Shown: positions 1,287 to 23,932 of the stretch, in pieces
Numbering within the stretch: position 1 is the first letter of the stretch
How the letters are laid out: every line of letters begins with the position of its first letter
From: a virus
Reading direction: 5' to 3' (one strand)
Length of the DNA stretch: 25,256 nucleotides
IMG/VR virus record: IMGVR_UViG_3300033150_001437
Location: 1 to 25,256 of that record
Notes under the pieces: generated by a model
Databases searched by the model: none
The model's input: the letters and a program-made list of their open reading frames with translations, nothing else
Told to the model about the DNA's origin: nothing
Program-made: the position numbers and the translations under genes

Positions 1287-2683
1287 TATTTCTCCTTTAT
1301 CATCTTGGCTTTGATTCTACGATAAAACTCCAACTCCGCCTGTGGATTACCGTCGTTCGGTAAAACGAACTTCTTCTTCACCGTTTCGCAAGCTTTCGCA
1401 TAAGGCATGACCATTGGAAAATCCTTTTCGAAGTTGCCCCTATAAACATCCTCCAAACCATGCTTAAAAATAAACTCTCTCCACTCATCCAAACTCTTTC
1501 TCCAGAACTTCCTGGACTCCATGACTATCCTTGCTTGCTCCAACGTAGATCTGCGCAAGATACAGAACGTATGTTCCTGCGCCGCTCGCATAACAGGAAA
1601 CGAACGAAATCTTCTATTCTTTCCGGCCACCTTGCAGAAAATCTCATCGCGGTTAATATCACACTCATTCATCAAATCGTGATTTTCCATCGGAGTGTAA
1701 GGTGTTGGATCTAAATGCGTAAACTTCATAACTACCCGAGGATAACGGTCAATGTCTGCTGGAAGCTCTTCGACAAACGCATCCACATCGAACGGCTGAT
1801 GCACTATCAGAAACAATTCCCAATCTATCTTCAACCGTTTGGTTATTGCCAAAACTGACCTAATCTCTTCCGGTTCGATTGGCTTGCGATACCAAAGCCT
1901 ACGCTGCGGGGTCAACCCCTCAATTCCTATATGAAGAAACTTTGACTTAGCATACTTATGCGGAGCCTGAAGAAAGCGTTTCACCGACACCGACTGAGCC
2001 GCTGAACAATCGAGAGTCGCAAACTCTCCCGTGTCATTCCCAACGAAATAAATACTCCGACCTCGATCTGCCAACGCTCGAAGAGGTGCCAACCTTTTTG
2101 GAGGAACCGTCTGATACTTATTCGCCCACGAAGTAAAACAGAACGAACACTTATTACGACACCCGCGACCCACCAAAAAATAATACATCTTCTTTGAAAC
2201 CTGCACCGCTGGGATTTCATGCCATGGAATCTCGTAGCTTGGATAAGTTGGTTTGCCCAACTTTCCGCGATAAGTTAAATAGGATTGCTCCTTACACCAC
2301 TCGATCAGTCCTTCCACTCCCTTATCTGTCGGAAAATTCTTCATAAAATGATACCCTTCGCCTGCGCAAACAAAATCCGCAAAATTCAAAATGTATGCCG
2401 GTGTGAATCCTTCTATTCCGCCCGCTATAATCAGCGTCTTCGGAAACTGTTCTCTTAACTTTGCCAACTTATAAACATCACCCGGAGAGTACAACGTGTA
2501 AAAAATGACGTTAAAATCCTTGGAATGGTCGGTTCTAAGACCCTTCTTGGCTAAATAATAACGGAACAGTCCCACCACATAGCCAGACAGCATATTCCTC
2601 TGCGAAGACGTATGCCAGATCCTTAACGGTTCTGGCGTCTTCTTTACTGCTGGCGCTTCTTTGACAATACCTTCTTTCGCCAT
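1286..2683 (-). CDS. Radical SAM protein with cobalamin-binding-like N-terminal region
   Basis: A 465-residue protein. The radical SAM motif CxxxCxxC is visible as GCRNKCSFC with Cys175, Cys179 and Cys182, the ligands of the 4Fe-4S cluster that cleaves S-adenosylmethionine. The preceding 110 residues (AGGIEG and CAGEG at about 87-110) resemble the Rossmann-like cobalamin-binding or degenerate B12-binding region of the B12-radical SAM group, but I see no DxHxxG cobalamin-ligand motif. The middle part (HIGIEGLTPQ, VHQPFDVDAF) fits a TIM barrel. It overlaps the end of the ParB-like gene upstream by 40 nt and is coupled to terL by TAATG. Substrate and reaction are unknown: modification of a nucleobase, tRNA or protein are all possible. 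Radical SAM assignment is firm; function is not. Confidence 0.85.
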   Translation of the reverse strand: MAKEGIVKEAPAVKKTPEPLRIWHTSSQRNMLSGYVVGLFRYYLAKKGLRTDHSKDFNVIFYTLYSPGDVYKLAKLREQFPKTLIIAGGIEGFTPAYILNFADFVCAGEGYHFMKNFPTDKGVEGLIEWCKEQSYLTYRGKLGKPTYPSYEIPWHEIPAVQVSKKMYYFLVGRGCRNKCSFCFTSWANKYQTVPPKRLAPLRALADRGRSIYFVGNDTGEFATLDCSAAQSVSVKRFLQAPHKYAKSKFLHIGIEGLTPQRRLWYRKPIEPEEIRSVLAITKRLKIDWELFLIVHQPFDVDAFVEELPADIDRYPRVVMKFTHLDPTPYTPMENHDLMNECDINRDEIFCKVAGKNRRFRSFPVMRAAQEHTFCILRRSTLEQARIVMESRKFWRKSLDEWREFIFKHGLEDVYRGNFEKDFPMVMPYAKACETVKKKFVLPNDGNPQAELEFYRRIKAKMIKEK

Positions 2684-3582
2684 TCCTCATACTCCTTCTG
2701 TTTTGCGACCCGCTGAGATTCTTTCATTTCCTGCCAATAAGCCATAAACTCTTCTGACCCGGGTAACTTTAAGTTGGAGGGTGGCCCGACCTCCTCCGTC
2801 AGAACCTCTATCAGATACTTGGCTATCCACTCACCCGCCAACTCCCGTTCCGAACGATTCGATCCGAACCGTTTAGAAAGCGATGACACTATCTTATCTA
2901 TAACTTCCCTCTGAACAACGCCTCCAAAACTTCCAAACGATACCACTATCAGATCCGCACCGATGGGAACATATGTCTTGCCATCGGATTCTCGATACTC
3001 TGCCTCTGGTGAAAGAGGTGCGGAATCTTCTGCCTCATCCACATCTTCCACCACCTGCTCCAACGATATCGGACTCTCAATATCCACCGCTAGCATACCC
3101 ATATCCAGCTCGTTAACGTGTGGCTTTATAAGCTTGGCTACCTCAAGAGTGTCGTAGAATCCGAACGACTGATTATCTAACAGCGAAATCTCTATCTTCT
3201 CCGCATACGATCTAGGTGTCACAACACAGACTTCCACCATCTCATCATCGGAATAACCCAAAATCTCTTTCATCGCGCGATACCGCATATTCCCACCACC
3301 TACAACATACTTACCTTTCTCTCTTTCCTTAGGCCATACCGTCAACGTCTTAAATAGTCCATACTTCTCTATACTTCTTGCTAACGCTTGCAATTTCTCC
3401 GGTGTGATAATTCTTGGATTCACATCCCACATCTCGATATCACCAAATCTAACAGTCTTAAACTCCGGTGGATGCTTTGTTGCTGCAAGTCTTTGAGTGT
3501 GATCCATAGACTCTATAACCACCTCACCAACCTGCATCTTGCCCTTCTTCTTCGGCTTAACCTTTTTAACTCTTCGTGGCAT
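2644..3582 (-). CDS. ParB-like protein, tandem paralogue A
   Basis: A 312-residue protein with a ParB/Srx-type N-terminal domain. It shows VRFGDIEMWDVNPR (NPR at 55-57), a helix resembling QALARSIEKYGLFKTL, and GGGNMRYRA at 95-103, which sits where ParB proteins have the GGHRR nucleotide-binding motif. EIEISLLDNQSFG-like sequence follows at about 130-140. The basic N-terminus (MPRRVKKVKPKKKGK) suggests nucleic acid contact. The C-terminal half (about 205-285) is not a typical ParB DNA-binding HTH but is shared with the neighbouring paralogue. It overlaps that gene by 17 nt. Known ParB-like folds are CTPases, nucleases or DNA-methylase partners; which applies here cannot be told. Its position just upstream of terL suggests a role linked to packaging or DNA marking. 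Confidence 0.8.
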   Translation of the reverse strand: MPRRVKKVKPKKKGKMQVGEVVIESMDHTQRLAATKHPPEFKTVRFGDIEMWDVNPRIITPEKLQALARSIEKYGLFKTLTVWPKEREKGKYVVGGGNMRYRAMKEILGYSDDEMVEVCVVTPRSYAEKIEISLLDNQSFGFYDTLEVAKLIKPHVNELDMGMLAVDIESPISLEQVVEDVDEAEDSAPLSPEAEYRESDGKTYVPIGADLIVVSFGSFGGVVQREVIDKIVSSLSKRFGSNRSERELAGEWIAKYLIEVLTEEVGPPSNLKLPGSEEFMAYWQEMKESQRVAKQKEYEEWRKKVLSKKRQQ

Positions 3583-4288
3583 TTTCTTCCTCGCTTTCTA
3601 ACTTTTCAAGAATCCTCTGCGACGCCCAAAGAACTCCTTCACGCATTGCCTGCCTGGTATTTCCATACTTTCGATGAAGCAGCTCTGCGACCGCATCAGT
3701 ATACACCGCTGAAATGGTGCAAATGTAATGACCCAAGCCTATCACTCCTAAATAACCCGTAACGGGATAACGGCAATGGGGGCCCTCGTTCTCGGATGCG
3801 TGAGGTACGATTGGCAGCTCTTCCATCTCCTCTATCGCGCCATAATCAAAAGCTATGGTTTCCAGCAACATCGGAGGTGAAACGGAAAAAGAAATCATAT
3901 CCATGTCAATCTGATCCGCATACGGTCGAACAAGATTGGCAACCTCAAGCTCATTATACAGCCCGAAAGCCTGATTGTCTAAAATAGAAAGCTCTATCTT
4001 TTCCGCTTCCGTCTCTGGAAAATTTAAAGAAATGTAGATAGGTTTACCCCTCGGCCACTTCAGAACATCCTTCAATACCCTATACCTCATATTCCCGCCA
4101 CCCGTTACAATCTTATCACCTTCTTTCCAACACGTAAGATTCTGAAACATCCCATACTTAGCTACACTATTTGCCAGCTGCCGCAGTTTGGTTGGATCAA
4201 TCTTTCTAGGATTCTTCTCCCACTCATGAATCTCTCCGAACGGAACCGCCTTAAATTGAGGTGGCTTCCGCTTCTTTTTCTGTGCCAT
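3566..4288 (-). CDS. ParB-like protein, tandem paralogue B
   Basis: A 240-residue protein closely similar in layout to the gene just downstream. It has VPFGEIHEWEKNPR (NPR at 26-28), LANSVAKYGMFQNLT, GGGNMRYR at 63-70, KIELSILDNQAFGLYNELEVANL at about 95-115, and a C-terminal half with KYGNTRQAMREG and ILEKLESEE that parallels the RFGSNRSERELAG and EVLTEE stretch of its neighbour. The two look like a full-length tandem duplication that has since diverged. The ATG at 4288 has a perfect AGGAGG at 4294-4299 five bases upstream. It is the first gene after a 130 bp non-coding stretch with repeats, so it probably begins the transcript that includes the radical SAM gene and terL. Biochemical activity is unknown. 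Confidence 0.8.
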   Translation of the reverse strand: MAQKKKRKPPQFKAVPFGEIHEWEKNPRKIDPTKLRQLANSVAKYGMFQNLTCWKEGDKIVTGGGNMRYRVLKDVLKWPRGKPIYISLNFPETEAEKIELSILDNQAFGLYNELEVANLVRPYADQIDMDMISFSVSPPMLLETIAFDYGAIEEMEELPIVPHASENEGPHCRYPVTGYLGVIGLGHYICTISAVYTDAVAELLHRKYGNTRQAMREGVLWASQRILEKLESEEENATKS

Positions 4289-4959: not shown

Positions 4960-5132
4960 TCCTTATTGTCCTTCTTCCCATTTTTAATCTTTTTAACATA
5001 AGAGAAAACCTCCAACCCACATTCTCCACACAATTCCAACGATATTCTTCCTGAACCAGGTATTTCAGAAACGAAGAGATAAGTTGGACATTTAATCCTT
5101 TTTTTACAGAGATCACATAACGTTATTTTCAT
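4956..5132 (-). CDS. Small zinc-ribbon protein (58 residues)
   Basis: A 58-residue gene shorter than a usual ORF cut-off. It starts MKITLCDLCKKRIKCP and contains LCGECG near residues 35-39, giving two CxxC pairs plus an extra Cys15, a four-Cys zinc-binding layout. Both ends are ATGA overlaps: its ATG overlaps the stop of the small-terminase candidate at 5129 and its TGA overlaps the ATG at 4959. GGAGAT lies just upstream. The alternative frame over the same bases (MISVKKGLN) has no Cys pattern and worse junctions. The role is unknown. Confidence 0.75.
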   Translation of the reverse strand: MKITLCDLCKKRIKCPTYLFVSEIPGSGRISLELCGECGLEVFSYVKKIKNGKKDNKE

Positions 5133-5851
5133 TTTTCATCTCCATTACCGCTATCGGCTAACGCTTCGGCGGCGTGTTTGCGCAACCACTCCATTATCCT
5201 ATCAACTTTTTCGACTTCATCCTCCGTCAACTTAGTGTCCAACGGTCTAGTCTCGGGTAACTGCTCCAGAACCCGAGCCAAATAAAGGTCTAACTCTATA
5301 CACTCTTTTGCCTCTTTGAAATTTCTTATCTCAACTCCCGTCTCCATCAGCTCTGCTCTTAGCCTTCTTATCTCTGCATTCATCTCCGCTATCCTTGCTG
5401 GATCTGGTTCCCGAGAAGCTGCCTCTTCAAGCCTGCTAATCTGAGTCAACAACCTAACCGTCTTCTGCACTCGACGTGAAAAAGCGACCAACCCCTGCTG
5501 CAACATTCCACGATAACCTACTACGTTCCTGGTGGACTGAATTATCTTCTCCCTCATCTGCTCTTCGCGCTTCTGTCTTTCCTCCATCTCTTTGCGTTTA
5601 ACCCAATCCTTCCAATTCTCCTTCTTCGCCCACCTTTTTATCTTGGTATAGAACGACTCGAACTTCGGATCATCTTCAGAACGATTAGGATACAGCTGAG
5701 AGAACCTTATTGCTGCGGTTTCACGAAGAGTTCTACTTTCACCTAAATAGTAATATATTTCAAAACTCTCGGAATGGTTAGGATATTCGGAATCCAAAAC
5801 GTCCGTATCGTCCGCTTTCTTATTAATTTGAGTTTCTTTTGCCACCAACAA
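5129..5851 (-). CDS. Putative terminase small subunit
   Basis: A 240-residue protein. Residues about 28-80 (IYYYLGESRTLRETAAIRF, then a segment ending WAKKENWKDWVKRKEMEERQ) match the layout of phage small terminases: an HTH that recognises packaging DNA followed by a Trp-rich ENWKDW-type turn. A long charged helix follows (about 80-200), as in small terminases that oligomerise by coiled coil. Location before the large-terminase genes supports the call. The first possible codon is TTG at 5851; a second TTG and a GTG at 5845 follow directly. An in-frame TGA lies just upstream and there is no clear Shine-Dalgarno site. A promoter places the likely RNA 5' end almost on these codons, so translation may be leaderless. 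Confidence 0.65.
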   Translation of the reverse strand: MLVAKETQINKKADDTDVLDSEYPNHSESFEIYYYLGESRTLRETAAIRFSQLYPNRSEDDPKFESFYTKIKRWAKKENWKDWVKRKEMEERQKREEQMREKIIQSTRNVVGYRGMLQQGLVAFSRRVQKTVRLLTQISRLEEAASREPDPARIAEMNAEIRRLRAELMETGVEIRNFKEAKECIELDLYLARVLEQLPETRPLDTKLTEDEVEKVDRIMEWLRKHAAEALADSGNGDEK

Positions 5852-5992: not shown

Positions 5993-7360
5993 TTAGTCAT
6001 TGGGAACGAAAAGAGGACAAACGCCTTTGGGTTTCCGAACTCCTTTTAAACACTGCGACGATTCCCCCAAATAAAATCGGCAATTTGCACATATGTCTTC
6101 GTCTGCTGGGACGAAATCGGGGCAAGCTTCTGGACCCGCTAGAATCTCCTCGTTACAGTACGAGCAAAAAGCCTTCTCGGCTCCACTTTCCATCGTCACT
6201 ACTTTAAAATACTGACAATCTGGACAGCGAGAAGACTCAGTAGTCGGAACAAAAAGCTTACAACTCCTCCGAAGAAGCGATAGATTACGCGCTGGAAACG
6301 ACTCAGAACAAGCGAACTCGCCGTTGTCTATCACCAAATGTTTACAACGCAAACAGACACACGTCTCAGAATCCTCCAACTCTTCTACGCCATTTTCCTC
6401 ATCCTGCCGCTTAAACTCCGAACACGGACAAGAAGCTTCTATAACACCCCCCTGAAGTGAACATCGCGCGATCTCATTACCATTTAAATCCTCTGCCACG
6501 CTAAAATAAACACAATCAGCAGGACGCTTCGCCGTTTTGGCTGGAATAAACCGGCCGCACTTAGTCCAAAGGCGAGGAAGAGTACGACCGGGAAAGGACT
6601 CGTCGCAAAAAAATTTGCCTTTATCAATCAGCAAATGACCGCACTCCAAACAACCACCCAATCTAGAGGGAGAGTCGTTCGGAACGGAAATAGTATGAAT
6701 GGTCGTACCTGGAAGAAAGGACTGACGACCGTAATAAGGACGCGTGACTTCCTCCTTAACTTTCTCTGAAATCTCTTTACGATACCGTTCCTTCTCCTTC
6801 GCCGTTAATGAATCCGCTACCACCACATTAAAAGAATCAAAAGTCACCCTAGCTGGAAAAAAGATAGATGGAAGGCCACATGACTTCTGTAGATCGGATC
6901 CTAAAGATGACAAATAACTCAAATCGACATCCATTCTCGCTTTCATCGAACCGTCCACGCACATAACCACACTAACCAACCACCCGGTGGAGCGGGCTAA
7001 CTTTGCTATCGTGTCAGTGTCAATGGAGGACCAAAAGGTTCCCATCGAAACATGAGAATGTATCCAACATTTTAAAGCCTCTGGATTCTTATGAGAACTC
7101 AAAAAAGCGGCCACGGACGCCATATCGAATGACGCTGAACCGAATGACACCTTCTGATCCAACAGATGAACCTGCTTAATAACGAACCGAGAAGCCTCTG
7201 CGTCTAGCTTGACCTCTCCCAAAAACTGAACCTCGTTTGGGTCGCACTCACGAGCGATGAACAGCAACTTATCATAAACCTTTCTTGGAAAAAAGACTGA
7301 CCATTCTGCTAATTCATCCCCAAACATGACATTATTGCTAACCTTTTTTACACCCTTCAT
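5993..7360 (-). CDS. JAB/JAMM-family isopeptidase with repeated Cys-rich zinc modules
   Basis: A 455-residue protein. Residues 20-150 carry a JAMM zinc-metalloprotease domain. Glu43 lies in NEVQFLGE, and HSHVSMGTFWSSID gives His101, His103, Ser111 and Asp114, an exact HxHx7Sx2D signature. The family removes ubiquitin-like tags by cutting isopeptide bonds. Residues 237-455 are Cys-rich: CLECGHLLIDKGKF-C-DESFPGR (237-258) recurs as CLRCKHLVIDNGEF-C-SESFPAR (336-357), each followed by a further Cys set with a DC-x-YF start (282 and 381). A final CANC...C...C unit ends the protein. These are probable zinc knuckles for substrate or DNA binding. GAGGTG precedes the ATG. It begins 2 bases after the E1 gene and is the last gene of the cassette. 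Confidence 0.88.
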   Translation of the reverse strand: MKGVKKVSNNVMFGDELAEWSVFFPRKVYDKLLFIARECDPNEVQFLGEVKLDAEASRFVIKQVHLLDQKVSFGSASFDMASVAAFLSSHKNPEALKCWIHSHVSMGTFWSSIDTDTIAKLARSTGWLVSVVMCVDGSMKARMDVDLSYLSSLGSDLQKSCGLPSIFFPARVTFDSFNVVVADSLTAKEKERYRKEISEKVKEEVTRPYYGRQSFLPGTTIHTISVPNDSPSRLGGCLECGHLLIDKGKFFCDESFPGRTLPRLWTKCGRFIPAKTAKRPADCVYFSVAEDLNGNEIARCSLQGGVIEASCPCSEFKRQDEENGVEELEDSETCVCLRCKHLVIDNGEFACSESFPARNLSLLRRSCKLFVPTTESSRCPDCQYFKVVTMESGAEKAFCSYCNEEILAGPEACPDFVPADEDICANCRFYLGESSQCLKGVRKPKGVCPLFVPND

Positions 7361-7362
7361 TT

Positions 7363-8046
7363 TTACACCTCAAACTTAACGATAGTCAGATCCGCCATAC
7401 TAATGGCGGTGTCCCGAACGACCTCGTCGTTCTTCAAATAGCGACGGACTATATTCGTCACGACGGATGCGACCATAAAGCCGACATCGATTATGGATCT
7501 GGCTGTACAAGACTGCTCCGACCCTTCTGCGTTAGAGAAAAGATTCTTTTCATACCACTTATGGTGCATCGCATCGTTGATAGGTCGAATAGCTAAAATC
7601 CGAATGGTCTCTCCGCCGATCCTACCATCAATATAAAGCGGAACGAAAATGTTCTTCTTAACGTGTTCCCAGATTTCCTTGCGGCCGGCGTGTTCATGTT
7701 CTTCATCTTTTCCCATGCTGTCAACTGCCGCTATCACAATACCGTTCAAAACATCATCGGTTGACCAAAACCGATTCATAGCCTCCACTTTAGTACCTGT
7801 CAACTCCTCAATTATGTCCGCGAGCGCCTCAACCTTTGACCTTCCTACGTCAGACAACTTGAAAAACTGATTGGGAACGTTGTGCTCTTCAACTACATCG
7901 CCATCCCAAACGGTTATCCTCGCCAGCCCCAACTTTGCCAACGCAATTGCAGTAAAAGAACCAATGCCGCCCGCTCCTATAACATGAACGTTAACATCTT
8001 CATAATCTAAAGGATTGAAAATATCAACCTGTCTGCGAAACTCCAT
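7363..8046 (-). CDS. E1-like (ThiF/MoeB superfamily) Ubl-activating enzyme
   Basis: A 227-residue adenylating enzyme. HVIGAGGIGS near residues 21-30 is the nucleotide-binding Rossmann loop. VWDGD near 46-50 supplies the ribose-binding acid, and EEHNVPNQFF with SKVEAL matches the region after it. AAVDSMGKD near 106-114 is the second acidic motif. SEQSCTARSI places Cys180 where E1-like proteins carry the catalytic thioester cysteine. Such enzymes adenylate the C-terminal glycine of a Ubl and pass it to E2. I chose the ATG at 8046, which has GGAGG six bases upstream, over the GTG one codon earlier. It overlaps the end of the E2 gene by 23 bases, so the two are translationally coupled. It has only a single catalytic domain and no extra Ubl-fold domain. 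Confidence 0.87.
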   Translation of the reverse strand: MEFRRQVDIFNPLDYEDVNVHVIGAGGIGSFTAIALAKLGLARITVWDGDVVEEHNVPNQFFKLSDVGRSKVEALADIIEELTGTKVEAMNRFWSTDDVLNGIVIAAVDSMGKDEEHEHAGRKEIWEHVKKNIFVPLYIDGRIGGETIRILAIRPINDAMHHKWYEKNLFSNAEGSEQSCTARSIIDVGFMVASVVTNIVRRYLKNDEVVRDTAISMADLTIVKFEV

Positions 8047-9448
8047 CACTTTCCTCCTTTATAGGTTTAACGCCCCATCGCTCCGCCAGGCTCTCGACTG
8101 ACGTGAAGCGATCATCATCGTTATAAGAATTCAAGAAATTCCAAATGACCTGAATTAACACCGTCCAATTCCAATCCGCCCACAACTTATACACCCCTTC
8201 CTTAATATCGCCCCAACAAACACTTTCACCACTATCTGTCACATGAGGATGCGTATAACTTGTATTCTGATGGTCTAAATTAACAAGATGAATATCTGCG
8301 GTTGAGGAAGATGAAAGAGAAATGCAGATCCGAAACCGACCGAGAGGATAAATCATCCCATTGTATCGAATCCTAGCCTCTGTTGTATCAAATTCCAACC
8401 AAGAATTGCAAAACCCAATTCGTTCGATAAACGGAAAAGACGCTATTTCCTGTAACTGAGTCTCGACATCCTTACGAATGACCGCTCTGCGATCCGCAGT
8501 TGCCTTAGCCAACGCTTCCTTCTCCTTAGATATTGCTGCTGAAATAGAAATCATCGAATGTATCGTCTTGTCTACCTCCCTTTTTATTCCATTTAAGGGC
8601 GGAATCTGTGCAATGAAACTGTCGACTCCGGCCTGAAAGGCTTGCTCATACGAATCTGGAGAGCCTGCGAAAAGCTCCGCTATTCTTCGAAACTGTCTGG
8701 CGCGTTGTCGTTTTTCCTGCGGATCATCGACCTTCTCTGATTTTAGCTTATTCAGCTCATCCAACACAAACTTAGCGGAAAAATAGGCGGACACTGCCAT
8801 TTTGAACTCTTTCTGTTTCTCATCAAAAGCGGCTGCCAAAACCGAAATCTTATCCCTCAACCCCCGCTCTATTCGACCGGACTGTGAAATCAACCTATCC
8901 GTAACTGCGTCGACCACCCTTGGTTCCACACTTGTAATCAAAATGCGCTGACGAGCCTGCTCCTCCGCCTTTCTCAATTTTTCCATCCTATTTGATTGAG
9001 CTGCGGAACGAACGTTGGGAACCGAAACTGACCGCAACCTACCATGCTCATCCACTCGCAGCTCTGTCTGAACTTCTTCTGGTTCGAGTATCGGGTACCT
9101 ACGAAAAGCTGCCTGAATCCGTCGTTGAACTTCACTAACCTCAATCCGCATCTCATCCAATACTGCCTGAACCCTATTTAAAGTCTCGGATGACAATCGA
9201 GTCTCTGAACCGGTATCTTCCGTAACTGATTGACCTTGAATCTGATGCCACTGCCAACCTTTCTCCTGACAAATATCTCTTATAATATTAAAAGACTCAG
9301 GATGAACACAAATATTGCCATCCTGATCCACGAATCCCAAAAAAGAACGATTACGAACTGATGCTAAGACGGTGGAGGCAGGAACAACTTCGCCACCCGC
9401 TGTCTTAACGACCCCCACCGCCCAAGAAGCATCAAGAAGGAACCGCAT
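8024..9448 (-). CDS. E2-like (UBC-fold) conjugating enzyme with long N-terminal extension
   Basis: A 474-residue protein. The last 130 residues carry an E2-like motif: YTHPHV at 398-403 stands for the family HPN turn, and SGESVCWGDI contains Cys411, the candidate thioester cysteine, followed by tryptophans in YKLWADWNWTVLIQVIW like the W after the active site of E2s. The first 75 residues form a small unknown domain (LLDASWAVGVVK, GFVDQDGNICVHPESF). Residues about 85-330 are mostly charged helix, probably coiled coil. Ordinary E2s are about 150 residues, so about 340 residues here are extra and may bind substrate or replace an E3. It starts 3 bases after the Ubl stop and overlaps the E1 gene. 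The E2 call rests on the Cys motif and the E1/Ubl/JAB neighbours. Confidence 0.8.
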   Translation of the reverse strand: MRFLLDASWAVGVVKTAGGEVVPASTVLASVRNRSFLGFVDQDGNICVHPESFNIIRDICQEKGWQWHQIQGQSVTEDTGSETRLSSETLNRVQAVLDEMRIEVSEVQRRIQAAFRRYPILEPEEVQTELRVDEHGRLRSVSVPNVRSAAQSNRMEKLRKAEEQARQRILITSVEPRVVDAVTDRLISQSGRIERGLRDKISVLAAAFDEKQKEFKMAVSAYFSAKFVLDELNKLKSEKVDDPQEKRQRARQFRRIAELFAGSPDSYEQAFQAGVDSFIAQIPPLNGIKREVDKTIHSMISISAAISKEKEALAKATADRRAVIRKDVETQLQEIASFPFIERIGFCNSWLEFDTTEARIRYNGMIYPLGRFRICISLSSSSTADIHLVNLDHQNTSYTHPHVTDSGESVCWGDIKEGVYKLWADWNWTVLIQVIWNFLNSYNDDDRFTSVESLAERWGVKPIKEESDGVSQTG

Positions 9449-9451
9449 CCT

Positions 9452-9685
9452 TCACCCCGCTACAATAGAATCGACTAAAACCAAACCGTCTCCGGGTTTA
9501 ACTATCGCTGCTTCATCGACCTGCTGACCGTTAAGGAAATACTGCTCTGCTCCACCCTCCAAAATGCCGCGCTCGATTAAAGTCTGAATAGACACTCCTT
9601 CCGGTTCCTCAATCACGACGGTTTTAGGTGGACGGCCTAAATGTAGAACCCTTATGCCTTCATTCGCTATCGCATTTTCTGACAT
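9452..9685 (-). CDS. Ubiquitin-like beta-grasp protein (ThiS/MoaD type)
   Basis: A 77-residue protein with the ThiS/MoaD/Ubl pattern. Strands RVLHLGR and KTVVIEE come first, then a helix VSIQTLIERG and the turn YFLNGQQVD like the fvNG.xv segment of ThiS, then VKPGDGLVLVDSIVAG. The chain ends in Ala-Gly with the stop codon directly after, so the terminal glycine is ready for adenylation without proteolytic processing. AAGGAGG lies at 9692-9698, six bases before the ATG. It is the first gene of the Ubl-E2-E1-JAB block. In function it would be the tag that E1 and E2 attach to lysines of targets. A sulfur-carrier role is possible but unlikely given the E2 gene. Confidence 0.87.
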   Translation of the reverse strand: MSENAIANEGIRVLHLGRPPKTVVIEEPEGVSIQTLIERGILEGGAEQYFLNGQQVDEAAIVKPGDGLVLVDSIVAG

Positions 9686-9714: not shown

Positions 9715-10005
9715 CTATATTGTCACATTCTCTAAATTTTCACAGCTCTTAATAGACTCATAAAGTTTCTGTGCGTCGTCCTCCAACATCTGTTTACCAT
9801 ATCTAAGAATCAACTCCTTCTGCGTCTCCGCAAAAGACGAACCCTTCTCGGCGTCCCAGTACTCTAAAACTCGCTCCATACCTATCGTCATGGCTACCAC
9901 TAAAGGCTCGAGATCGGCTTCAAACTTCGAATCTGCCACCCTAAGCTGTTGAGTTAGCTGGTAAAGAAGCATTCGAAAGTAAACCGCTTTTTCGTAAAAA
10001 TTCAT
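9715..10005 (-). CDS. Hypothetical helical protein upstream of the Ubl gene
   Basis: A 96-residue, mainly helical, acidic protein (MNFYEKAVYFRMLLYQLTQQ at the start, then YWDAEKGSSFAETQKELILR). I recognise no family. I chose the ATG at 10005, with GAGGAG at 10016-10021, over the TTG at 10023. It overlaps the end of the 9941-10549 gene by 65 bases in another frame. The spacing of about 30 bases to the Ubl gene places it in the same transcript, so it could be a helper or a target of the conjugation system. This is inference only. Confidence 0.6.
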   Translation of the reverse strand: MNFYEKAVYFRMLLYQLTQQLRVADSKFEADLEPLVVAMTIGMERVLEYWDAEKGSSFAETQKELILRYGKQMLEDDAQKLYESIKSCENLENVTI

Positions 10006-10549
10006 CGACTTTACTCTCCTCAAACATTAAAGTTGGTGGAGTCTTATGTATGACACGCCGAAGATACGATTTAAACTCTAAAAAATCTGAGTCGGTTCTA
10101 ACTTCGAAAAGTTTTCTGCCGACCACCCTCGAAACCGCTCCGAACATTGAACAGTAAAGATAGCTGTCTGCGCCTACCAACGCATTTGAAGACGGTCTTA
10201 CCATTCTGAAATACAACATAGGACAGCTTTTGCAGTCCAACCCATGACTCATACAAAACCCACACCACGGATCTGATGATGGAAAAAAGAAAAGACTGAA
10301 AAAGGAATGAACAAACCGGCGACCGTTGACTGTCTTGATTCTGCACGCTCTATTTAGAACTAACCAGCGAATAGAATCCAGCCACAACGCTGCATCATAC
10401 GCACGACGTGGATCTCCGGGATACAGCACTAGCGCATCTACTGCTGCACCATACGCTTTCAGAAAAACATCAAAACAAACATCATTAAGATGAACCGAAA
10501 AAACTTCCGCCGCAGCCGCAACATTTACCAACGACTCATCCAATACCAT
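9941..10549 (-). CDS. Hypothetical protein with internal Cys cluster
   Basis: A 202-residue protein of unknown family. A Cys cluster CGFCMSHGLDCKSC in the middle (about 98-111) has the spacing of a zinc or iron-sulfur site. The rest is mixed hydrophobic and charged (VCFDVFLKAYGAAVDALVLY; YLYCSMFGAVSRVVGRKLFE). The 3' end overlaps the next gene by 65 bases, more than elsewhere in this window. TGACAATTAA and GGTGGAGG precede the ATG. Its place between a ParB-like gene and the Ubl cassette suggests common expression. Confidence 0.6.
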   Translation of the reverse strand: MVLDESLVNVAAAAEVFSVHLNDVCFDVFLKAYGAAVDALVLYPGDPRRAYDAALWLDSIRWLVLNRACRIKTVNGRRFVHSFFSLFFFPSSDPWCGFCMSHGLDCKSCPMLYFRMVRPSSNALVGADSYLYCSMFGAVSRVVGRKLFEVRTDSDFLEFKSYLRRVIHKTPPTLMFEESKVDEFLRKSGLLSNASLPANSTA

Positions 10550-10590: not shown

Positions 10591-11232
10591 TCACTTCTTC
10601 GTTTTTATTTCGAAATTGGATCCCTCATACTTCATACAAAGACTCAAAAAATCTGCCTCCAAAGATTGGCGTTGTGTTTCCAGAACCGACATAGGACACG
10701 TGAAGACCACCTCACAGCGGCGGTGGTCGTCGTTCGATGTGGATGCAGGCTGCGGCACATGCGGCGCCTCGAAAACGTCGCTATCCGCCTCTCTCCACCT
10801 TAAAAGATCTTCCAAATATGCTGGATCCCAACCGACCAAATACTCCTTCTGTTGTGATGTGGCTTCCAAGTACCAATTAATCAACTCATCATAATCCCAA
10901 GAGGCTTCCTCGGCTATCCTGCCTTCCGAAAGAATATAAGTCATGTACTCTTCCGCGCTAAGATTAACTCGAACGCATTTAATCTTATCAAGATTTAAAA
11001 CTTTCGCCGCTTCCAACCGACAATATCCGCCCAAAAGAGTATTATCTGCTGAAACTATACACGGATCCACGAACCCATAACGTCGAATTGACTCGACCAT
11101 ATGATCAACCTGGTCTTTGGGATGAATTTTTGGATTTCTCAGCAATTTAAGATCCTTTATAGAAATCCATTCTATTTCATTAAAATGTTCACGCAACTGC
11201 TCCTCCAATCTGTTTGATAGTTGAAACTCCAT
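10591..11232 (-). CDS. ParB-like protein, divergent third copy
   Basis: A 213-residue protein with a ParB N-terminal-type domain: WISIKDLKLLRNPK (NPK at 33-35), VESIRRYGFVDPCIV, and GGYCRLEAAKVLNLDKIKCV at 68-87 with YCR where ParB has HRR. LSAEEYMTYIL and EEASWDYDELINWYLE follow, as in the short ParB-like domains often fused to or found beside phage DNA methylases. It differs clearly from the tandem pair at 2644-4288, which share GGGNMRYR. It overlaps the SbcC-like gene by 44 bases. Whether it acts as a DNA-binding CTPase, a nuclease or a modification cofactor cannot be said. Confidence 0.75.
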   Translation of the reverse strand: MEFQLSNRLEEQLREHFNEIEWISIKDLKLLRNPKIHPKDQVDHMVESIRRYGFVDPCIVSADNTLLGGYCRLEAAKVLNLDKIKCVRVNLSAEEYMTYILSEGRIAEEASWDYDELINWYLEATSQQKEYLVGWDPAYLEDLLRWREADSDVFEAPHVPQPASTSNDDHRRCEVVFTCPMSVLETQRQSLEADFLSLCMKYEGSNFEIKTKK

Positions 11233-13015
11233 CCTTGCTCTTAAACACCCTTATCTCACCGTCGAAATCACCGATTAGAAAATTATGCGAAATAACATAC
11301 ACACCCCGCTCCTCTGCCCTGCTCTTTAACAAACTCAAAAGCCGCTCTGAACCAGAATCATCTAAATTCTCAAACACCTCGTCGAAAATTTGAATGTTCG
11401 TATCCACTCCGGTCTGATACGAAATTAAATCATGAAGAGCGAGAAGAACGATAACATCTATCTTGCGTTTCTCGCCGCCTGAGCTTTGTGAATACTCCAC
11501 GCCGGACAAAGAAGACGTTTCGACCACAAACCGTTCTCTTGTCTCTCCCGATGAGACGGTCGTATAATTCTTAAACTCAATCCGAACCTCTCCATCCACG
11601 AGAAACTGCGAGTAATTCTCGGATGCCTGATTAAGAAACGGCAACACATTCTCCAAAACCAGCGTCCTGATTCCACGATTTGAAAACCCCACCAGCCAAA
11701 AATCTAATCCTTCGATTACTGAATCTATAACCGAAAGGCGATGGTTAATCTTCGCTTCTTTCGCTTTCAAATCATCTATCAACCTATCAATCTCCGCCTG
11801 CTCCTTCTTCTTTTCTTCCACCCTTCTTTTCTCTGCCTTCATATCTGTTAGAAGCTGCGCTTCCTCGACTTCAAGACTTCGAACCTTCTTATCTAACTTC
11901 CTCTTAATTTCTCTAAAGGCACGCAACTTTTCCTCGACCCTTCCAAACGATGCCTGAGACTCCACCAACTCGTTCTCTTTAATTCGTATCTCCTCCTCCA
12001 ACGCTCCTTGACCGGCTAGCAAAGATTCCAGACGAGACTCTGACGTTTTTCTTACTTCAACTGCCGTCTCGGAATCTATAACACGCTTACAGACCGCACA
12101 AGGCTTACCTACTACCTTTTTCCATTGCGCCAACTCTTCACGAAGATTATTTATCTCTTTTTGATTAGCCCTTAACTTAGCCGCTATCGAAGAACACTCC
12201 GCCTTTAACGCCGCTACGAATCCGGATCTTTCAAAAACCTCCGCCTCAATCTTCTCCATGGCATCTTCGACTTCCTCAACCTTTTTCTTCAAATTGGACA
12301 ACTCCTTTCGAACTCTCTCTAACTCCTTCTTATGATTAGAATGCGACGGTGACTTGTTAAAAAGATTTTTTCGTCGAGCCTCCAACGCTTCAATATCACT
12401 CCTTAAATGATAAAGTTCCAACTCCAACGATGACTTTTCCGTTAAATACTCCTTCTTAGTCTCGAATGCCCTCTGCCTGCAATCAGCCACCCATCCGAGT
12501 GCCAAAATTTCATCGAACACCTTCTTTTTCTCCGCATCGGTTGCCTGAACAAATCTTGACGGCAACCCCTGACCGTAACAAACGGCATTCTTAAAAATAT
12601 CGAATGAAAACCCCAACTCGCTCACTATTCTAGCGTTTGTTTCTACCTGTTTTGAACCGGTGAGATCCACGTCTCTGGTTATATTACGAAACTCCACCGA
12701 ATTTTCGCGGACAGGATGATTTCTAGTTCGATAAACCTGAAACTCTTCCTCGCCTTTCTGAAAAATAACCGATACCTCACAATAATCCGCTCCTCTGCGA
12801 ATCACCGAATCCGGCGACACTCCTCTAAGAGTCTTACCGAACAGCGCGAAGACCAGACACTCCGCTATCGAAGACTTTCCCGCTCCATTAGAAGACGCTA
12901 TCGCACTCTCCACTTCGCCCAAAATCAAATACAACCCTTTATCATTAAACTTAAAATCGAGCCGCTCGAACGACATAAAATTCTTCGCTTCGACCTTCAA
13001 AAACCTAACTTTCAT
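11189..13015 (-). CDS. sbcC: SbcC/Rad50-like recombination ATPase (T4 gp46 type)
   Basis: A 608-residue SMC-like ATPase that works with the Mre11/SbcD nuclease in resecting double-strand ends and fuelling recombination-dependent replication. Walker A SNGAGKSS lies at 42-49. Long coiled-coil arms (about 185-430) meet at a zinc hook CAVC (306-309). The ABC signature SSGGEK is at 511-516 and Walker B IQIFDEVFENLD at 541-552, followed by SHNFL with the switch His577. The length matches phage gp46 proteins, shorter than cellular SbcC. It overlaps the SbcD gene by 11 bases, as usual for this pair. Confidence 0.92.
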   Translation of the reverse strand: MKVRFLKVEAKNFMSFERLDFKFNDKGLYLILGEVESAIASSNGAGKSSIAECLVFALFGKTLRGVSPDSVIRRGADYCEVSVIFQKGEEEFQVYRTRNHPVRENSVEFRNITRDVDLTGSKQVETNARIVSELGFSFDIFKNAVCYGQGLPSRFVQATDAEKKKVFDEILALGWVADCRQRAFETKKEYLTEKSSLELELYHLRSDIEALEARRKNLFNKSPSHSNHKKELERVRKELSNLKKKVEEVEDAMEKIEAEVFERSGFVAALKAECSSIAAKLRANQKEINNLREELAQWKKVVGKPCAVCKRVIDSETAVEVRKTSESRLESLLAGQGALEEEIRIKENELVESQASFGRVEEKLRAFREIKRKLDKKVRSLEVEEAQLLTDMKAEKRRVEEKKKEQAEIDRLIDDLKAKEAKINHRLSVIDSVIEGLDFWLVGFSNRGIRTLVLENVLPFLNQASENYSQFLVDGEVRIEFKNYTTVSSGETRERFVVETSSLSGVEYSQSSGGEKRKIDVIVLLALHDLISYQTGVDTNIQIFDEVFENLDDSGSERLLSLLKSRAEERGVYVISHNFLIGDFDGEIRVFKSKDGVSTIKQIGGAVA

Positions 13016-14117
13016 CCCAGATCTCCTCCAACGCCTTCCTCTCGATCTCCGTTAACGCCAACCTAGATGTGGACTCGAACAACACCTGGCCCGTCCTGGA
13101 AAACTTAACCCGATCCTCCTCGTGATCCACCGTCCGCTTAACGTACTTATCAATCAGCTCTTTTGGACTATCGAGTAAAAACAAAGAAGACGGATCAACA
13201 TTCACTTCCTTTGCCGATTTAGCCACTACGAACCGCACATTCTCCGGCATTTCTGCTGGAAGCGCATCTGGAAAAATGCGATAATAATCTTTATCATTAA
13301 ACTCTACCTCATCTGCCCGATCCCTAACAGTGATGAAAGCTGGATGTTTAAAATAAACTCTGGAAACCTTATGAGCCACACTTCTAACTCCTTCCACCTC
13401 CACAACACGAAGATCCACCCTCCACGCACTACCACCACCGCATTCATCTCCAAAATTATGAGGAATTGCCGCTCCAGGGATAAGAACGTTGTTCATCAAA
13501 AAAGGCATATGGTAATGTCCGACCACCGAAAACGCGAAATTTGCCATCAGAAAATGCGGATCGAACCCATTCTTAATCCAGAACGGCAATCCAAATTCCT
13601 CGCCTTTAACATTGCCATGTGCAACCAGAACGAACGGAGCGTCGAACTCGACATTTTTCATGCTTTCCTCCAACCACTCCTGCACCAAAGCGTCCTCTCT
13701 ATACGGAAGACAGAAAAACCCCCACGTCTCACCCTGTGAATCTTTCAACTTTACAACTTCATCCAAAAAGAAGCGTCTATTCTCCGTTTTGAAATCGCCA
13801 ACAAGCTCCCTAAAAGCTGAAAGAGCCGAATAACCAGACCTGGTTAAATCATGATTGCCCGAACAAGCTATGAACGGCTTCTTCAACTTCGCCAATATCT
13901 CCTTCGCTCTAGCCAACGAAACAACGTCGACTTTCCCTCTCTCTTCAAAAAAATCTCCTGAAAAAACTAAACAGTCAACTGAAGGATGATTTGCTAACTC
14001 GACGATCCTTTCCAACCGGCGCAATATCTCCAACCGTCTAGAATTATCTCCCTCTTTAAACGTGGCGAACATCCTAAAAGGATGAACGTGTAAATCAGAA
14101 AAAACAACGATCCTCAT
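13005..14117 (-). CDS. sbcD: SbcD/Mre11-like nuclease (T4 gp47 type)
   Basis: A 370-residue metallophosphoesterase nuclease partner of the SbcC-like protein. Metal-binding motifs appear in order: SDLHVH (Asp8, His10), SGDFFE (Asp55), SGNHD (Asn88, His89, Asp90), VAHGNVKG, and VVGHYHMPF near residue 196, which completes the two-metal site. The C-terminal third forms a capping and partner-binding region. The ATG overlaps the stop of the RuvC-like gene as ATGA, and its own end overlaps sbcC. The pair would process ends for RecA-driven strand invasion. Confidence 0.93.
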   Translation of the reverse strand: MRIVVFSDLHVHPFRMFATFKEGDNSRRLEILRRLERIVELANHPSVDCLVFSGDFFEERGKVDVVSLARAKEILAKLKKPFIACSGNHDLTRSGYSALSAFRELVGDFKTENRRFFLDEVVKLKDSQGETWGFFCLPYREDALVQEWLEESMKNVEFDAPFVLVAHGNVKGEEFGLPFWIKNGFDPHFLMANFAFSVVGHYHMPFLMNNVLIPGAAIPHNFGDECGGGSAWRVDLRVVEVEGVRSVAHKVSRVYFKHPAFITVRDRADEVEFNDKDYYRIFPDALPAEMPENVRFVVAKSAKEVNVDPSSLFLLDSPKELIDKYVKRTVDHEEDRVKFSRTGQVLFESTSRLALTEIERKALEEIWDES

Positions 14118-14599
14118 CCGTACCTCTCCTCTGCCATCTTCAAAAGAAAAAGAGCATCCGCCTCGTTGTGATTTTCTATTTTTCGGCGGAACTCTTTTTT
14201 TGCTGCTTGAAGAATCTCGACCTTAGACACATTTCCCTTCCCGACAACGAACTTTTTCAACTCCGACGGAGTGACTGCAAAATAATTCACACCCATCCGG
14301 TCACATTCTTCCAAGACTCGTGTCGACATACCGTACAACACCTCATAGGCTGGCCCACTTTTTAGCTCATAAGGCTTCTCATAGACAACGAGTGAAACCT
14401 TTTTCTTTTTCAAAAAATCCAAAAACCAAACGCGAAAATTAAGAAAAATCATCCCTCTAGAATCGCCTCGCCGCAGCGAAAAATCCTCAACTCCGCTTTC
14501 TCTGGTCTTGCCGTCTGAAAAAGCCCAACCTGTTTGCAGACCCAGATCAAGAGCGAGAATTCTAGTCCGACTCCTTCTCTTCTTCCGTTGCGGAACCAT
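14114..14599 (-). CDS. ruvC: RuvC-like Holliday junction resolvase
   Basis: A 161-residue RNase H-fold protein. ILALDLGLQTGWA (Asp18) is the first catalytic strand, VVYEKPYELKSG holds the second acid, and HNEADALFLLKMAEE near the end gives the last acidic pair. TPSELKKFVVGKGNVSK is the typical RuvC middle segment. Such enzymes cut four-way junctions made in recombination, which is needed before packaging branched phage DNA. The ATG at 14599 has AGGAGG upstream and overlaps the end of recA by 38 bases. Another RNase H-fold nuclease is possible, but the order of motifs fits RuvC best. Confidence 0.85.
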   Translation of the reverse strand: MVPQRKKRRSRTRILALDLGLQTGWAFSDGKTRESGVEDFSLRRGDSRGMIFLNFRVWFLDFLKKKKVSLVVYEKPYELKSGPAYEVLYGMSTRVLEECDRMGVNYFAVTPSELKKFVVGKGNVSKVEILQAAKKEFRRKIENHNEADALFLLKMAEERYG

Positions 14600-15587
14600 A
14601 TTCCGATCCTCCTTCCGCTGTTAGATAAAACGACTTCTTATACGCCTCCATCATGGCATCGCCACATTCTTCCCAAACCTTTAAAAACTCCCTAGAAGTA
14701 AACCGTCTATCGCCGAACTGATAACTCCGAGAAGTTGGCCGTGTTATTATCTCCTCGTCGACCAAAAAATTCAGCAATCCGCTATGACGAGGAATGCCTC
14801 TGTTGAAAAATATCTCGAACGCGGCCTTCCGGTAAGGAATCCCTATCTTGCTCTTAGTTACCTCAAGCTCTCCTTTCACCCCAACCACACGATTACCGCT
14901 TTTCAATCTTCCCTTCTTCCGCAACACGACACGAAGCCCCGCATAATACTTAGGAGCCTTGCCGCCCGCTGTGTGTGTCTTTTCTCCAAACATTACGCCT
15001 ATCTTATCCCGCAGTTGATTTACGAACACCACTGCGACCCTTGTGTCGGCTATCAAATTTGTGAGGCGACGAAGACATTTCGAGATAGCTCGTGCACGAA
15101 GAGCGACCGCGGGACGAATCAGGTCCATTGACTTCTCCTCGTACGCTATGCTGGCCTCCAACGAATCCTTAACATAAAGAATGGGAACGTCACGAAAAGA
15201 ATCCGACTCCCTCGCCTTGCGGCAAAACTTCTCCATATGGCTAAAGCCTTCTTCGAGAGAATCTGCTACGAAATAAATCAGTTTATTCAAATCTATCCCC
15301 AACACTTTGGCCCACCTAACGTCGAACGCCCGCTCCGAATCGTCCAACACCGCTATTCCACCCTGCAGCTGACACTCCTTGATAGACTGATACATAACAA
15401 GGCTCTTGCCGCTCTGCCACTCCCCTGAAATTTCTGAAATTCTAGACTCCGGCCATCCGCCGCCCATTGCCAAATCAAAGGCGACGACTCCCGTCGAAAT
15501 ACAGCGGATCTCCTCCTCTGCCCCTGAAAGATCAATTACGGAGAATTCACTACGAAGACGTTCCAAATCATCTTCAAAACTAGCCAT
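14562..15587 (-). CDS. recA: RecA/UvsX-family recombinase
   Basis: A 341-residue strand-exchange ATPase. STGVVAFDLAMGGGWPESRI is the pattern before the P-loop, GEWQSGKS is Walker A at residues 55-62, and IAVLDDSERAFD matches the RecA segment with the catalytic acid. VAVVFVNQLRDKIGVMFG and HTAGGKAPKYYAGLRVVL match the L1/L2 DNA-binding region. Its acidic tail (GSATEEEKESD) resembles cellular RecA. The ATG overlaps the stop of the ssDNA-binding protein gene as TAATG, coupling the two products that act together on single-stranded DNA. Confidence 0.93.
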   Translation of the reverse strand: MASFEDDLERLRSEFSVIDLSGAEEEIRCISTGVVAFDLAMGGGWPESRISEISGEWQSGKSLVMYQSIKECQLQGGIAVLDDSERAFDVRWAKVLGIDLNKLIYFVADSLEEGFSHMEKFCRKARESDSFRDVPILYVKDSLEASIAYEEKSMDLIRPAVALRARAISKCLRRLTNLIADTRVAVVFVNQLRDKIGVMFGEKTHTAGGKAPKYYAGLRVVLRKKGRLKSGNRVVGVKGELEVTKSKIGIPYRKAAFEIFFNRGIPRHSGLLNFLVDEEIITRPTSRSYQFGDRRFTSREFLKVWEECGDAMMEAYKKSFYLTAEGGSEYGSATEEEKESD

Positions 15588-16378
15588 TAGCGTTCCGCCT
15601 CTCTCTTCAACTGCTCGATTCTAGACTTGCGAGACACCGACGGTATCGTAATAACGCCTGTTTCTTCTACGGTCTCCGCATTCCACTCCGAATCGTCTCC
15701 GATCTCATCCTCCGGTTCTTCCTCTTCTTCAACAAAATCTTCGCCTTCCAACATAGCTTTCATTTCTCCTTCGGACGGAACTTGATAAGGCTCGAACTCG
15801 TCGAGATTAATCGCTTGATTCATCACCGCAGGATCTACTGCTGAAGGATGCGCCGCAGGACGAATGGAATATCGCGTGTCAAACCTGCCTTCCCCTGTAC
15901 GATTAACCTTAATATGACGACCGGTTTTAAGATCGTCAATTTCGCCATACTCCTCGTCGAGAAAAAGAACCAGCAGCGTATTGAACATCGTAATTCCGAC
16001 ATCCCATACCTGGACGCCCTTATCCAGCTCATTAATATCTAGAATGTTCATCGCGAACCGCTCTTTCGCTGAAAGATCCCTCGCCAGCTCCTTATCTTCC
16101 TTTCGACCGGAGCGTCTCAACTGCTCTACAAAATTACAGATGGGACAATTGGCATCCGCTCCCAACATTTTCCGACAAACCACGTGGTTGCGATCTTCGC
16201 CCACTCCAAAATGTTTCAGCACCTTCTTGAAAAACACCCTGTTTGGATCTCCTGACCAATGCGGAAGAATACGAATGACATTCTCTCCGACCTTCGGTCG
16301 CCAAAAAGACGTAGATTGACGACTCGTAAGATCTGTCAGTCTTTTGTGTTCTTCCTCCAAAAGTTCTCTTTTACTCAT
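15587..16378 (-). CDS. gp32-like single-stranded DNA-binding protein
   Basis: A 263-residue protein with the phage gp32-like core: FWRPKVGENVIRILPHW near residues 25-41 is the characteristic first strand pair, and Cys68, Cys78 and Cys81 (CPIC) with a nearby His form the zinc site. The tail at about 212-238 is very acidic (EDFVEEEEEPEDEIGDD), like the protein-interaction tails of SSBs, followed by a short basic end. It would coat replication and recombination intermediates and load RecA/UvsX. AGGAGG lies just before the ATG at 16378. A 50 bp gap upstream shows no clear promoter. Confidence 0.82.
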   Translation of the reverse strand: MSKRELLEEEHKRLTDLTSRQSTSFWRPKVGENVIRILPHWSGDPNRVFFKKVLKHFGVGEDRNHVVCRKMLGADANCPICNFVEQLRRSGRKEDKELARDLSAKERFAMNILDINELDKGVQVWDVGITMFNTLLVLFLDEEYGEIDDLKTGRHIKVNRTGEGRFDTRYSIRPAAHPSAVDPAVMNQAINLDEFEPYQVPSEGEMKAMLEGEDFVEEEEEPEDEIGDDSEWNAETVEETGVITIPSVSRKSRIEQLKREAER

Positions 16379-23536: not shown

Positions 23537-23932
23537 TTAAGCCTCCTCAGCATTATCCGTACCCTTTTTGAACGTTAATAATTCCTTTGTCAGATCCCTA
23601 ATTTTCACGATCAAAGGCGGATCGTTGACAAAAATATCCTCGGGGTAAGTTTGACACCACCATTGGCAAATATCCCAAAGACTTGCTCTCTCTCCATTTT
23701 CTAGAAAAAGCTGTATCCCTTCTTCCCTCCTCATTGGTTCAAAATACACGCAACCAAAATCTCCGTTAACAATAATACTTGCTGAAGCATCCACATCAAT
23801 GCCTACCGAATCGATTTGGTTGAAAAAGTTGCAATAATACCAGCCTTCAATACGTTCATGTACATCGCCGAGCCACTTACAATCCGCACATCTACATGAA
23901 CCGAACCTCCTTAATTTTTTCGCATCACTCAT
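23537..23932 (-). CDS. Cys-rich hypothetical protein
   Basis: A 131-residue protein with CRCADCKWLGD at the start and YYCNFF then GCVYFEP near residues 30-65. This CxxC...C...C..F.P layout is the same kind of unit as the modules in the JAB protein tail. The C-terminal half (ASLWDICQWWCQTYPEDIFV and VKIRDLTKELL) is helical. AGGAGG lies before the ATG. Role unknown. Confidence 0.65.
   Translation of the reverse strand: MSDAKKLRRFGSCRCADCKWLGDVHERIEGWYYCNFFNQIDSVGIDVDASASIIVNGDFGCVYFEPMRREEGIQLFLENGERASLWDICQWWCQTYPEDIFVNDPPLIVKIRDLTKELLTFKKGTDNAEEA

Follow-up and report, generated by a model that had tools for sequence, protein, structure and literature searches.

A four-gene cassette within a viral contig

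Why would a phage carry a complete set of genes for attaching a ubiquitin-like protein (Ubl) to other proteins and for removing it again? The question is raised by a 25,256-nucleotide (nt) viral contig from IMG/VR (IMGVR_UViG_3300033150_001437), analysed here at its full length and referred to as the window, in which positions 5993-9685 of the minus strand were confirmed to hold a complete cassette for a Ubl, an E2-like conjugating enzyme, an E1-like enzyme and a JAB peptidase, arranged as one tight operon inside a phage. Complete bacterial Ubl pathways have until now been viewed as defences of the host (Bil, CBASS) or as plasmid modules (PRTRC). The reading favoured here, with a probability of roughly 70%, is that the sequence encodes a phage-owned, reversible Ubl-conjugation pathway, most likely regulating proteins in phage DNA metabolism. 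The cassette is probably a tool with which viruses tag proteins in infection, not a bacterial defence that has strayed into a phage.

A preliminary description had listed four adjacent, coupled genes, and all of these open reading frames (ORFs), their tight spacing and their family assignments were upheld. The operon begins with the Ubl gene (9452-9685; 77 amino acids, aa), which is followed by the genes for the E2-like protein (8024-9448; 474 aa), the E1-like ThiF-family adenylyltransferase (7363-8049; 228 aa, from a GTG start) and the JAB/JAMM metallopeptidase (5993-7360; 455 aa), all on the minus strand. The Ubl and E2 genes are separated by 3 nt, the E2 and E1 genes overlap by 26 nt, and 2 nt lie between the E1 and JAB genes. 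Strong ribosome-binding sites precede the Ubl start (AAGGAGGT) and the E1 start. The same locus is present in a second IMG/VR record at 99.4% DNA identity with all four genes intact, and comparison of the three enzyme genes between these near-identical records gave 18 synonymous against 10 non-synonymous codon changes, which suggests constraint on the enzyme genes.

Assignment of the four proteins

The window Ubl and E2 returned nothing meaningful from Pfam or NCBIfam, and both proteins were assigned by family profiles, conserved residues and structural models, with the 164 ORFs of the window as search background. The Ubl comprises one beta-grasp domain and terminates in DSIVAG, so that, as the preliminary description had noted, Gly is its last residue (Gly77), without a maturation extension. 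An AlphaFold2 model built from an alignment with 23 phage Ubls displayed a beta-beta-alpha-beta-beta-beta fold with a predicted local distance difference test (pLDDT) score of 82, and Foldseek matched this model to MoaD, TtuB, ubiquitin and NEDD8 at a probability of 1.00. A leave-window-out Ubl profile selected the window Ubl at 7.8e-7 (next ORF 0.5), and the C-terminal Gly was found to be conserved in at least 90% of the phage Ubls. By its modelled fold and C-terminal Gly the protein qualifies as a ubiquitin-like beta-grasp modifier.

The E1-like protein was matched by the Pfam ThiF model (PF00899) at 2.1e-17, with 63.5 bits against a cut-off of 28.1, and by phrog_15670 at 3.5e-25. Its candidate thioester cysteine, previously given as Cys180 by counting from an ATG, is Cys181 when counted from the GTG start, and it was invariant in 46 of 46 phage E1s, as were G25, G27, D49, D51, N57, Q61, K72, D110 and R123; the cysteine had been no criterion for selecting these sequences. 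The above-cut-off domain and conserved cysteine place the predicted protein in the E1 (ThiF/MoeB/UBA) superfamily.

The E2-like protein has a low-confidence N terminus, a long coiled coil (~192-336) and a UBC-like C-terminal domain (~340-460) carrying the active-site residues H400-P401-H402...C411-W-G. A profile of 17 other phage E2s, built without the window, selected it at 4e-14 (next ORF 0.5). When 19 E2s were aligned, the other 18 being only 12-27% identical to the window domain, solely P401, C411, G413 and N443 were invariant, which sustains the earlier choice of Cys411 as candidate catalytic residue, and H402 and D446 were nearly so. Comparison of the phage E2 family profile with the PDB gave, among the best 60 matches listed, eukaryotic E2s or E2 fusions in every case (best E ~6e-5), with the catalytic cysteines aligned: phage HPHvsseGeaClG lay on eukaryotic HPNinsnGsiClD. 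The signature HP[HN]...G..C is thus shared with eukaryotic E2s such as UBE2D2, UBE2N and UBE2A; the phage E2s differ in being fused to a long coiled coil, in having HPH rather than HPN and CxG for CLD, and in their very low identity. The AlphaFold model reached a pLDDT of ~90 over much of residues 320-450, with a helix, strands, an active-site loop and helices predicted. Through its sequence profile, with the catalytic cysteine in register, the predicted window protein is related to known E2s. Such HPH...C E2s, linked directly by profile to those of eukaryotes, bear on the origin of ubiquitin.

The JAB catalytic domain spans residues 20-143, and its zinc motif, HSHx7SxxD at 101-114 (H101, H103, S111 and D114), is the one the preliminary description had pointed out. 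The score against the Pfam Prok-JAB model lay under the cut-off (16.6 versus 25 bits), while a profile of 45 other JABs selected the window protein at 1.2e-19 (next ORF 1.4), and weak similarity to Rpn11 and AMSH was detected. HxHx7SxxD is common to all 46 JABs, an invariance that arises by construction because the relatives were gathered by this motif; the upstream catalytic Glu was aligned at only 61%. On profile and zinc motif the predicted protein is a JAB/JAMM (MPN+) peptidase. The C-terminal part forms an array of about five Cys-rich modules, with 22 cysteines after residue 220. By inspection, residues ~225-455 (window 5993-6690) are made up of tandem modules with the arrangement CxxC...C...CxxF(V/I)P, and an ORF at 23537-23932 seems to carry a loosely similar Cys pattern.

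A predicted conjugation cycle

Taken together with established E1-E2 chemistry, the conserved residues outline a cycle in which we infer the direction of each step. The E1 would adenylate Gly77 at the C terminus of the Ubl and then hold the Ubl as a thioester on Cys181, from which it would pass to Cys411 of the E2. The coiled coil and N-terminal part of the E2 would probably recruit the target, and the E2 would place the Ubl on a target lysine. The JAB would then release the Ubl from the target, and the Cys-rich array of the JAB would probably aid in binding conjugates. Since the Ubl already ends in Gly, the JAB of the window phage would be needed for removal and not for maturation. The most likely role would be to regulate proteins, of the phage or of its host, where phage DNA is being replicated or recombined. 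Conjugation itself is considered highly likely.

One alternative is that the Ubl serves as a sulfur carrier, its thiocarboxylate supplying a nucleotide, tRNA or cofactor with sulfur in the manner of ThiS, MoaD or TtuB while the E2-like protein does some other job. In NCBIfam comparison the E1 is indeed closest to ThiF-type families, MoaD and TtuB are among the structural matches of the Ubl, and the phage Ubl profile also detects E. coli ThiS. However, an E2 would be superfluous in a sulfur-carrier pathway, and throughout the set comes with one whose HPH...C active site aligns with that of eukaryotic E2s; nor was any sulfurtransferase or rhodanese recognized among the scanned genes of the window, which is a genome fragment. 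The presence of the E2 makes this explanation improbable.

Related cassettes in other phages

When the window E1 or E2 was used alone as a query against IMG/VR, the near-identical record was the sole match. Six E1 sequences aligned together were too divergent to support a pattern search; an alignment of two E1s identified 56 loci in IMG/VR (loci carry the prefix L below), and in their reading frames the four parts recurred time after time. Apart from the window, a systematic profile scan detected complete Ubl, E2, JAB and E1 sets at 23 loci, each with a distinct E1 (21 IMG/VR contigs and two contigs in bacterial metagenome-assembled genomes, MAGs). Because many of these loci had contributed to the profiles, their own E-values are inflated; the window contributed to none of the three profiles for E2, JAB and Ubl.

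Five layouts were distinguished. In the first, Ubl-E2-JAB-E1 occurs with a single Ubl (L011, L012, L014-L016, L020, L042 and L067). The second, on contigs reaching 208 kb, has two E2s, a JAB, an E1 and a tandem di-Ubl with domains ending in KGN (L024, L027, L033, L039, L041 and others), and the third (L031) has a tandem Ubl with domain ends KGG and EGGQ and two E2s. In the fourth (L044 and L030) the Ubl lies elsewhere in the set. The fifth is the order of the window: L058, L062 and L064 carry a Ubl, a divergent E2-like protein (HYH...CWG), an E1 and a JAB, the E2-like protein being related to the E2 family by hhalign at E = 7e-4 and a probability of only 26%. The Ubls of L062 and L064 end in VAG, as does that of the window. 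These three loci rule out the idea that the order Ubl-E2-E1-JAB is unique to the window.

Tandem di-Ubls together with two E2 genes were observed in L021, L024, L026, L027, L033, L039 and L041, and in L031. The di-Ubls of these loci are candidate viral di-ubiquitin-like precursors, and the conserved Gly at the end of each tandem domain, beside a JAB, suggests that processing may take place in these relatives.

Named phages were searched by tblastn (50,697 phage records). Relatives of the E1, at ~27-34% identity, were found in Flavobacterium Fpv, crAss-like and Xanthomonas/Erwinia jumbo phages; the window E2 found no relatives in these records, and two diverged phage E2s had no matches in named phage records. 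In the crAss-like and Fpv modules clear JAB and E1 homologues adjoin each other near UDG and primase genes, and the E1s are ~28-33% identical to the window E1; unlike in the window, the E2 and Ubl are divergent or unrecognized by the profiles. Their genes are annotated as 'thiamine biosynthesis', 'metalloprotease' or hypothetical. In crAss001 (gp79-gp76; L004, 2238-6648) gp77 is the JAB and gp76 is an E1 extended by a further region at its N terminus, while gp78 (HSH...C) and gp79 appear E2- and Ubl-like by eye, for which the profiles gave no confirmation. Xanthomonas phage PhiXhv-12 and Erwinia phage Ep032 resemble the window in having a Ubl-like ORF (ending in GG), an E2 (HPH...CLG; phage E2 profile E = 2e-6) and an E1 in a row, but the E2 is of 892 aa, the Ubl is missed by the phage Ubl profile and no JAB was found within 6 kb. 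The PhiXhv-12 cassette (L007, 2736-6612), from an isolated jumbo phage, is annotated as hypothetical or thiamine biosynthesis genes. Related modules exist in isolated phages (crAss001, Fpv).

The same E1 alignment, scanned over genome contigs, turned up eight loci, of which three were cassettes on contigs from MAGs; E1 matches in Bartonella and Erysipelotrichaceae (L068-L071) were set aside as they lay without a recognizable cassette. The E2 profile, run over 1,187 bacterial genomes, gave one clear match, in a MAG that was known already, plus three weak matches, including a PRTRC-like E2 adjoining a ThiF gene; the three phyla covered were picked for convenience, small genomes make up most of one of them, and the near-absence applies to the genomes covered. 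Judged from these sequences, four-part cassettes owned by phages, nearly all of them uncultivated, seem to form a whole viral branch. They offer minimal E1-E2-Ubl-DUB (deubiquitinase) systems for biochemistry.

Bacterial Ubl pathways as such are already known. No description of phage-encoded E1-E2-Ubl-JAB sets was found in the open-access literature searched. In a 2021 jumbo-phage survey, from the group that defined prokaryotic ubiquitin systems, ubiquitin comes up solely in connection with eukaryotic viruses and in one reference title; a 2021 survey of crAss-like phages mentions neither ThiF nor ubiquitin. Ubl/JAB pairs in phage tail TAPI proteins were described in 2006.

Comparison with Bil, PRTRC and CBASS

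It could be that the cassette is a bacterial defence or plasmid module of the Bil or PRTRC type, recently acquired by the phage as accessory cargo. Bil, like the window, has a Ubl ending in Gly, an E2, a JAB-type DUB and an E1 as four adjacent genes, and the preliminary description had taken set and order to match. The BilABCD order, however, is Ubl-E2-DUB-E1, BilA contains two Ubl domains, BilB carries a CEHH motif (Cys, Glu at +6, His at +8 and His at +13) and BilD combines inactive and active adenylation domains with a Cys domain (PMC11354881). The window order is Ubl-E2-E1-JAB; its Ubl is a single domain of 77 aa and not tandem, its E1 has one ThiF domain in 228 aa rather than two adenylation domains, and its E2 has the upstream HPH and fails CEHH, E417 being present after C411 but V419 and A424 replacing the His residues. 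The window cassette, moreover, sits in a phage. The match to Bil did not hold. The order Ubl-E2-JAB-E1, which Bil and PRTRC share, is common to many of the phage relatives, which would speak for cargo, but there it is built from phage-type enzymes.

PRTRC and the type 6d operons are likewise compact, combining a Ubl, E2, JAB and E1 with ParB-family genes nearby, and PRTRC, found on plasmids, is the closest cellular E1 group. The overlap with PRTRC that had been proposed was nevertheless too strongly put. The PRTRC_ThiF model (TIGR03736) scored the window E1 at 45.9 bits against a cut-off of 144.75, and the PRTRC ParB model scored the neighbouring ParB-like protein at 18.2 against 278.6; the NCBIfam scan reported no PRTRC model match for the window JAB, E2 or Ubl, and the phage E2 and JAB profiles failed to recognize PRTRC B and A. 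With the phage E1 profile, phage E1s scored 145-275 bits, PRTRC E1s 96-104 and ThiF/MoeB 63-70. The E2s of operon type 6d (Iyer et al. 2006) are without the upstream His (PMC1779556). In an E1 tree of 63 rows PRTRC was set apart with support of 100/99, and the window fell within a virus-type group of 46 rows (87/83), near L010 and L031 but with weak support and on a long branch.

Type II CBASS, in which Cap2/Cap3 include an E2-E1 fusion beside a CD-NTase, was not matched either, the window E1 and E2 being separate genes; no nucleotidyltransferase was recognized among the scanned neighbours (Pfam, PHROG). PADLOC matches were limited to the ThiF domain of E1-E2 fusions, leaving the E2, Ubl and JAB unmatched. 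Identity with Bil, PRTRC or CBASS was rejected, the defining features having been tested and failed, and with the separation of the E1s and the near-absence of the E2 family from the bacterial genomes, recent acquisition as cargo is judged highly improbable.

Genomic neighbourhood and possible targets

A large and diverse set of phage-owned cassettes reverses the usual question, which becomes that of which proteins the virus tags. The preliminary description had placed the cassette between recombination and packaging genes, and this proved correct. Upstream on the minus strand (11189-16378) lie genes for SbcC, SbcD, a RuvC-like resolvase, a UvsX/RecA recombinase and a gp32-like SSB, identified with PHROGs and Pfam. 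The order is SSB, UvsX, RuvC, SbcD, SbcC, a ParB-like gene, the cassette and then the small terminase subunit (5129-5851, minus strand; phrog_6299, 3.6e-8), 141 nt downstream of the JAB gene. A large terminase was recognized in the window at 3.4e-4.

In relatives, the modules of crAss001 and cr106_1 lie near primase, UDG, resolvase and exonuclease genes, that of Fpv3 near UDG and that of PhiXhv-12 near ligase and topoisomerase. Among 102 neighbour proteins at 16 loci, DNA helicases were the commonest families. An SNF2 helicase was present in 13 of 17 phage records (43-208 kb, one or two SNF2 genes each) and, in 11 of the 17, lay within ~8 kb of the E1 on the same strand, these being raw counts without a background rate; L020 and L031, at ~32-33 kb, were exceptions. 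These conserved replication and recombination neighbours favour a role in DNA metabolism, for which the chance is put at somewhat under even. The roles suggested earlier (virion tagging, superinfection exclusion and counter-defence) are disfavoured by the same neighbours, although the choice is unproven.

That the targets are instead virion, packaging or assembly proteins, modified by the same chemistry for maturation or to block assembly of competing phages as Bil does, draws on the small terminase gene next to the JAB gene and the large one nearby. Bil reportedly interferes with phage assembly, as the title of a 2024 paper by Hor and colleagues has it. The neighbours shared among relatives, however, are replication and helicase genes and not packaging genes, and this explanation is regarded as unlikely. 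Another suggestion is counter-defence, in which the phage adds tags to, or removes them from, immune proteins of the host, or its JAB strips host-attached Ubls from phage proteins. Bacteria do employ Ubl conjugation against phages, and a precedent is available in Borgs, which carry multicopy JAMM proteases and for which deSAMPylase counter-defence has been proposed (PMC12660748). Removal alone would need only a JAB, whereas the full forward pathway has been kept across diverged phages, and counter-defence is considered unlikely.

A more specific form of the DNA-metabolism reading can be put forward tentatively, with perhaps one chance in three: the cassettes may represent a virus-specific Ubl lineage, its E2 active site nearer to eukaryotic E2s than to those of Bil and PRTRC, that modifies proteins at sites of phage replication and recombination, the phage equivalent of the control that ubiquitin exerts over DNA-damage tolerance in eukaryotes. 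This is suggested by the recurrent SNF2 helicase neighbours, RecA and SbcCD. In L024, L027 and L022 a gene for an SNF2 helicase and, after it, one for a small VRR-NUC-like endonuclease (phrog_93, three neighbours) were observed upstream of the E2 genes. In eukaryotes HLTF/Rad5 and FAN1 work with ubiquitin, and the pairing of SNF2 with VRR-NUC recalls them.

Several points weigh against a phage conjugation pathway acting in DNA metabolism. No E3 was seen, and the conjugating activity is a prediction from genes and models. Residues 56-61 of the E1 read HNVPNQ, with Asn in place of the Arg of the usual N-x-x-R-Q motif; in several phage E1s, read by eye, this position is taken by Asn or Gly. The structural comparison that the preliminary description had proposed as a check bore out the Ubl fold, but a Foldseek search with the E2 modelled at full length found coiled-coil matches only and no E2, the coiled coil swamping the search. 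The neighbour signal is partly shared ancestry; several of the phages surveyed for SNF2 are kin, and judged by their E1s they represent about four lineages. Note also that replication genes fill much of large phage genomes, which weakens the neighbourhood signal.

Other features of the window

Two further ORFs precede the cassette in the same direction on the minus strand. The nearer (9715-10023; 102 aa) ends 29 nt ahead of the Ubl start and is possibly co-transcribed with the cassette. The other (9941-10549; 202 aa) contains a small Cys cluster, CGFCMSHGLDCKSC, and had no matches below 0.1 in Pfam and PHROG scans. Three proteins with ParB-N domains are encoded near the terminase genes and the cassette (2644-3582, 3566-4288 and 10591-11232), two of which adjoin each other and are apparently paralogous. 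Between the large terminase and ParB-like genes, the ORF at 1286-2683 encodes a divergent radical SAM protein (22.4 bits, under the Pfam cut-off) with no PHROG matches; radical SAM proteins were also observed near two other cassettes.

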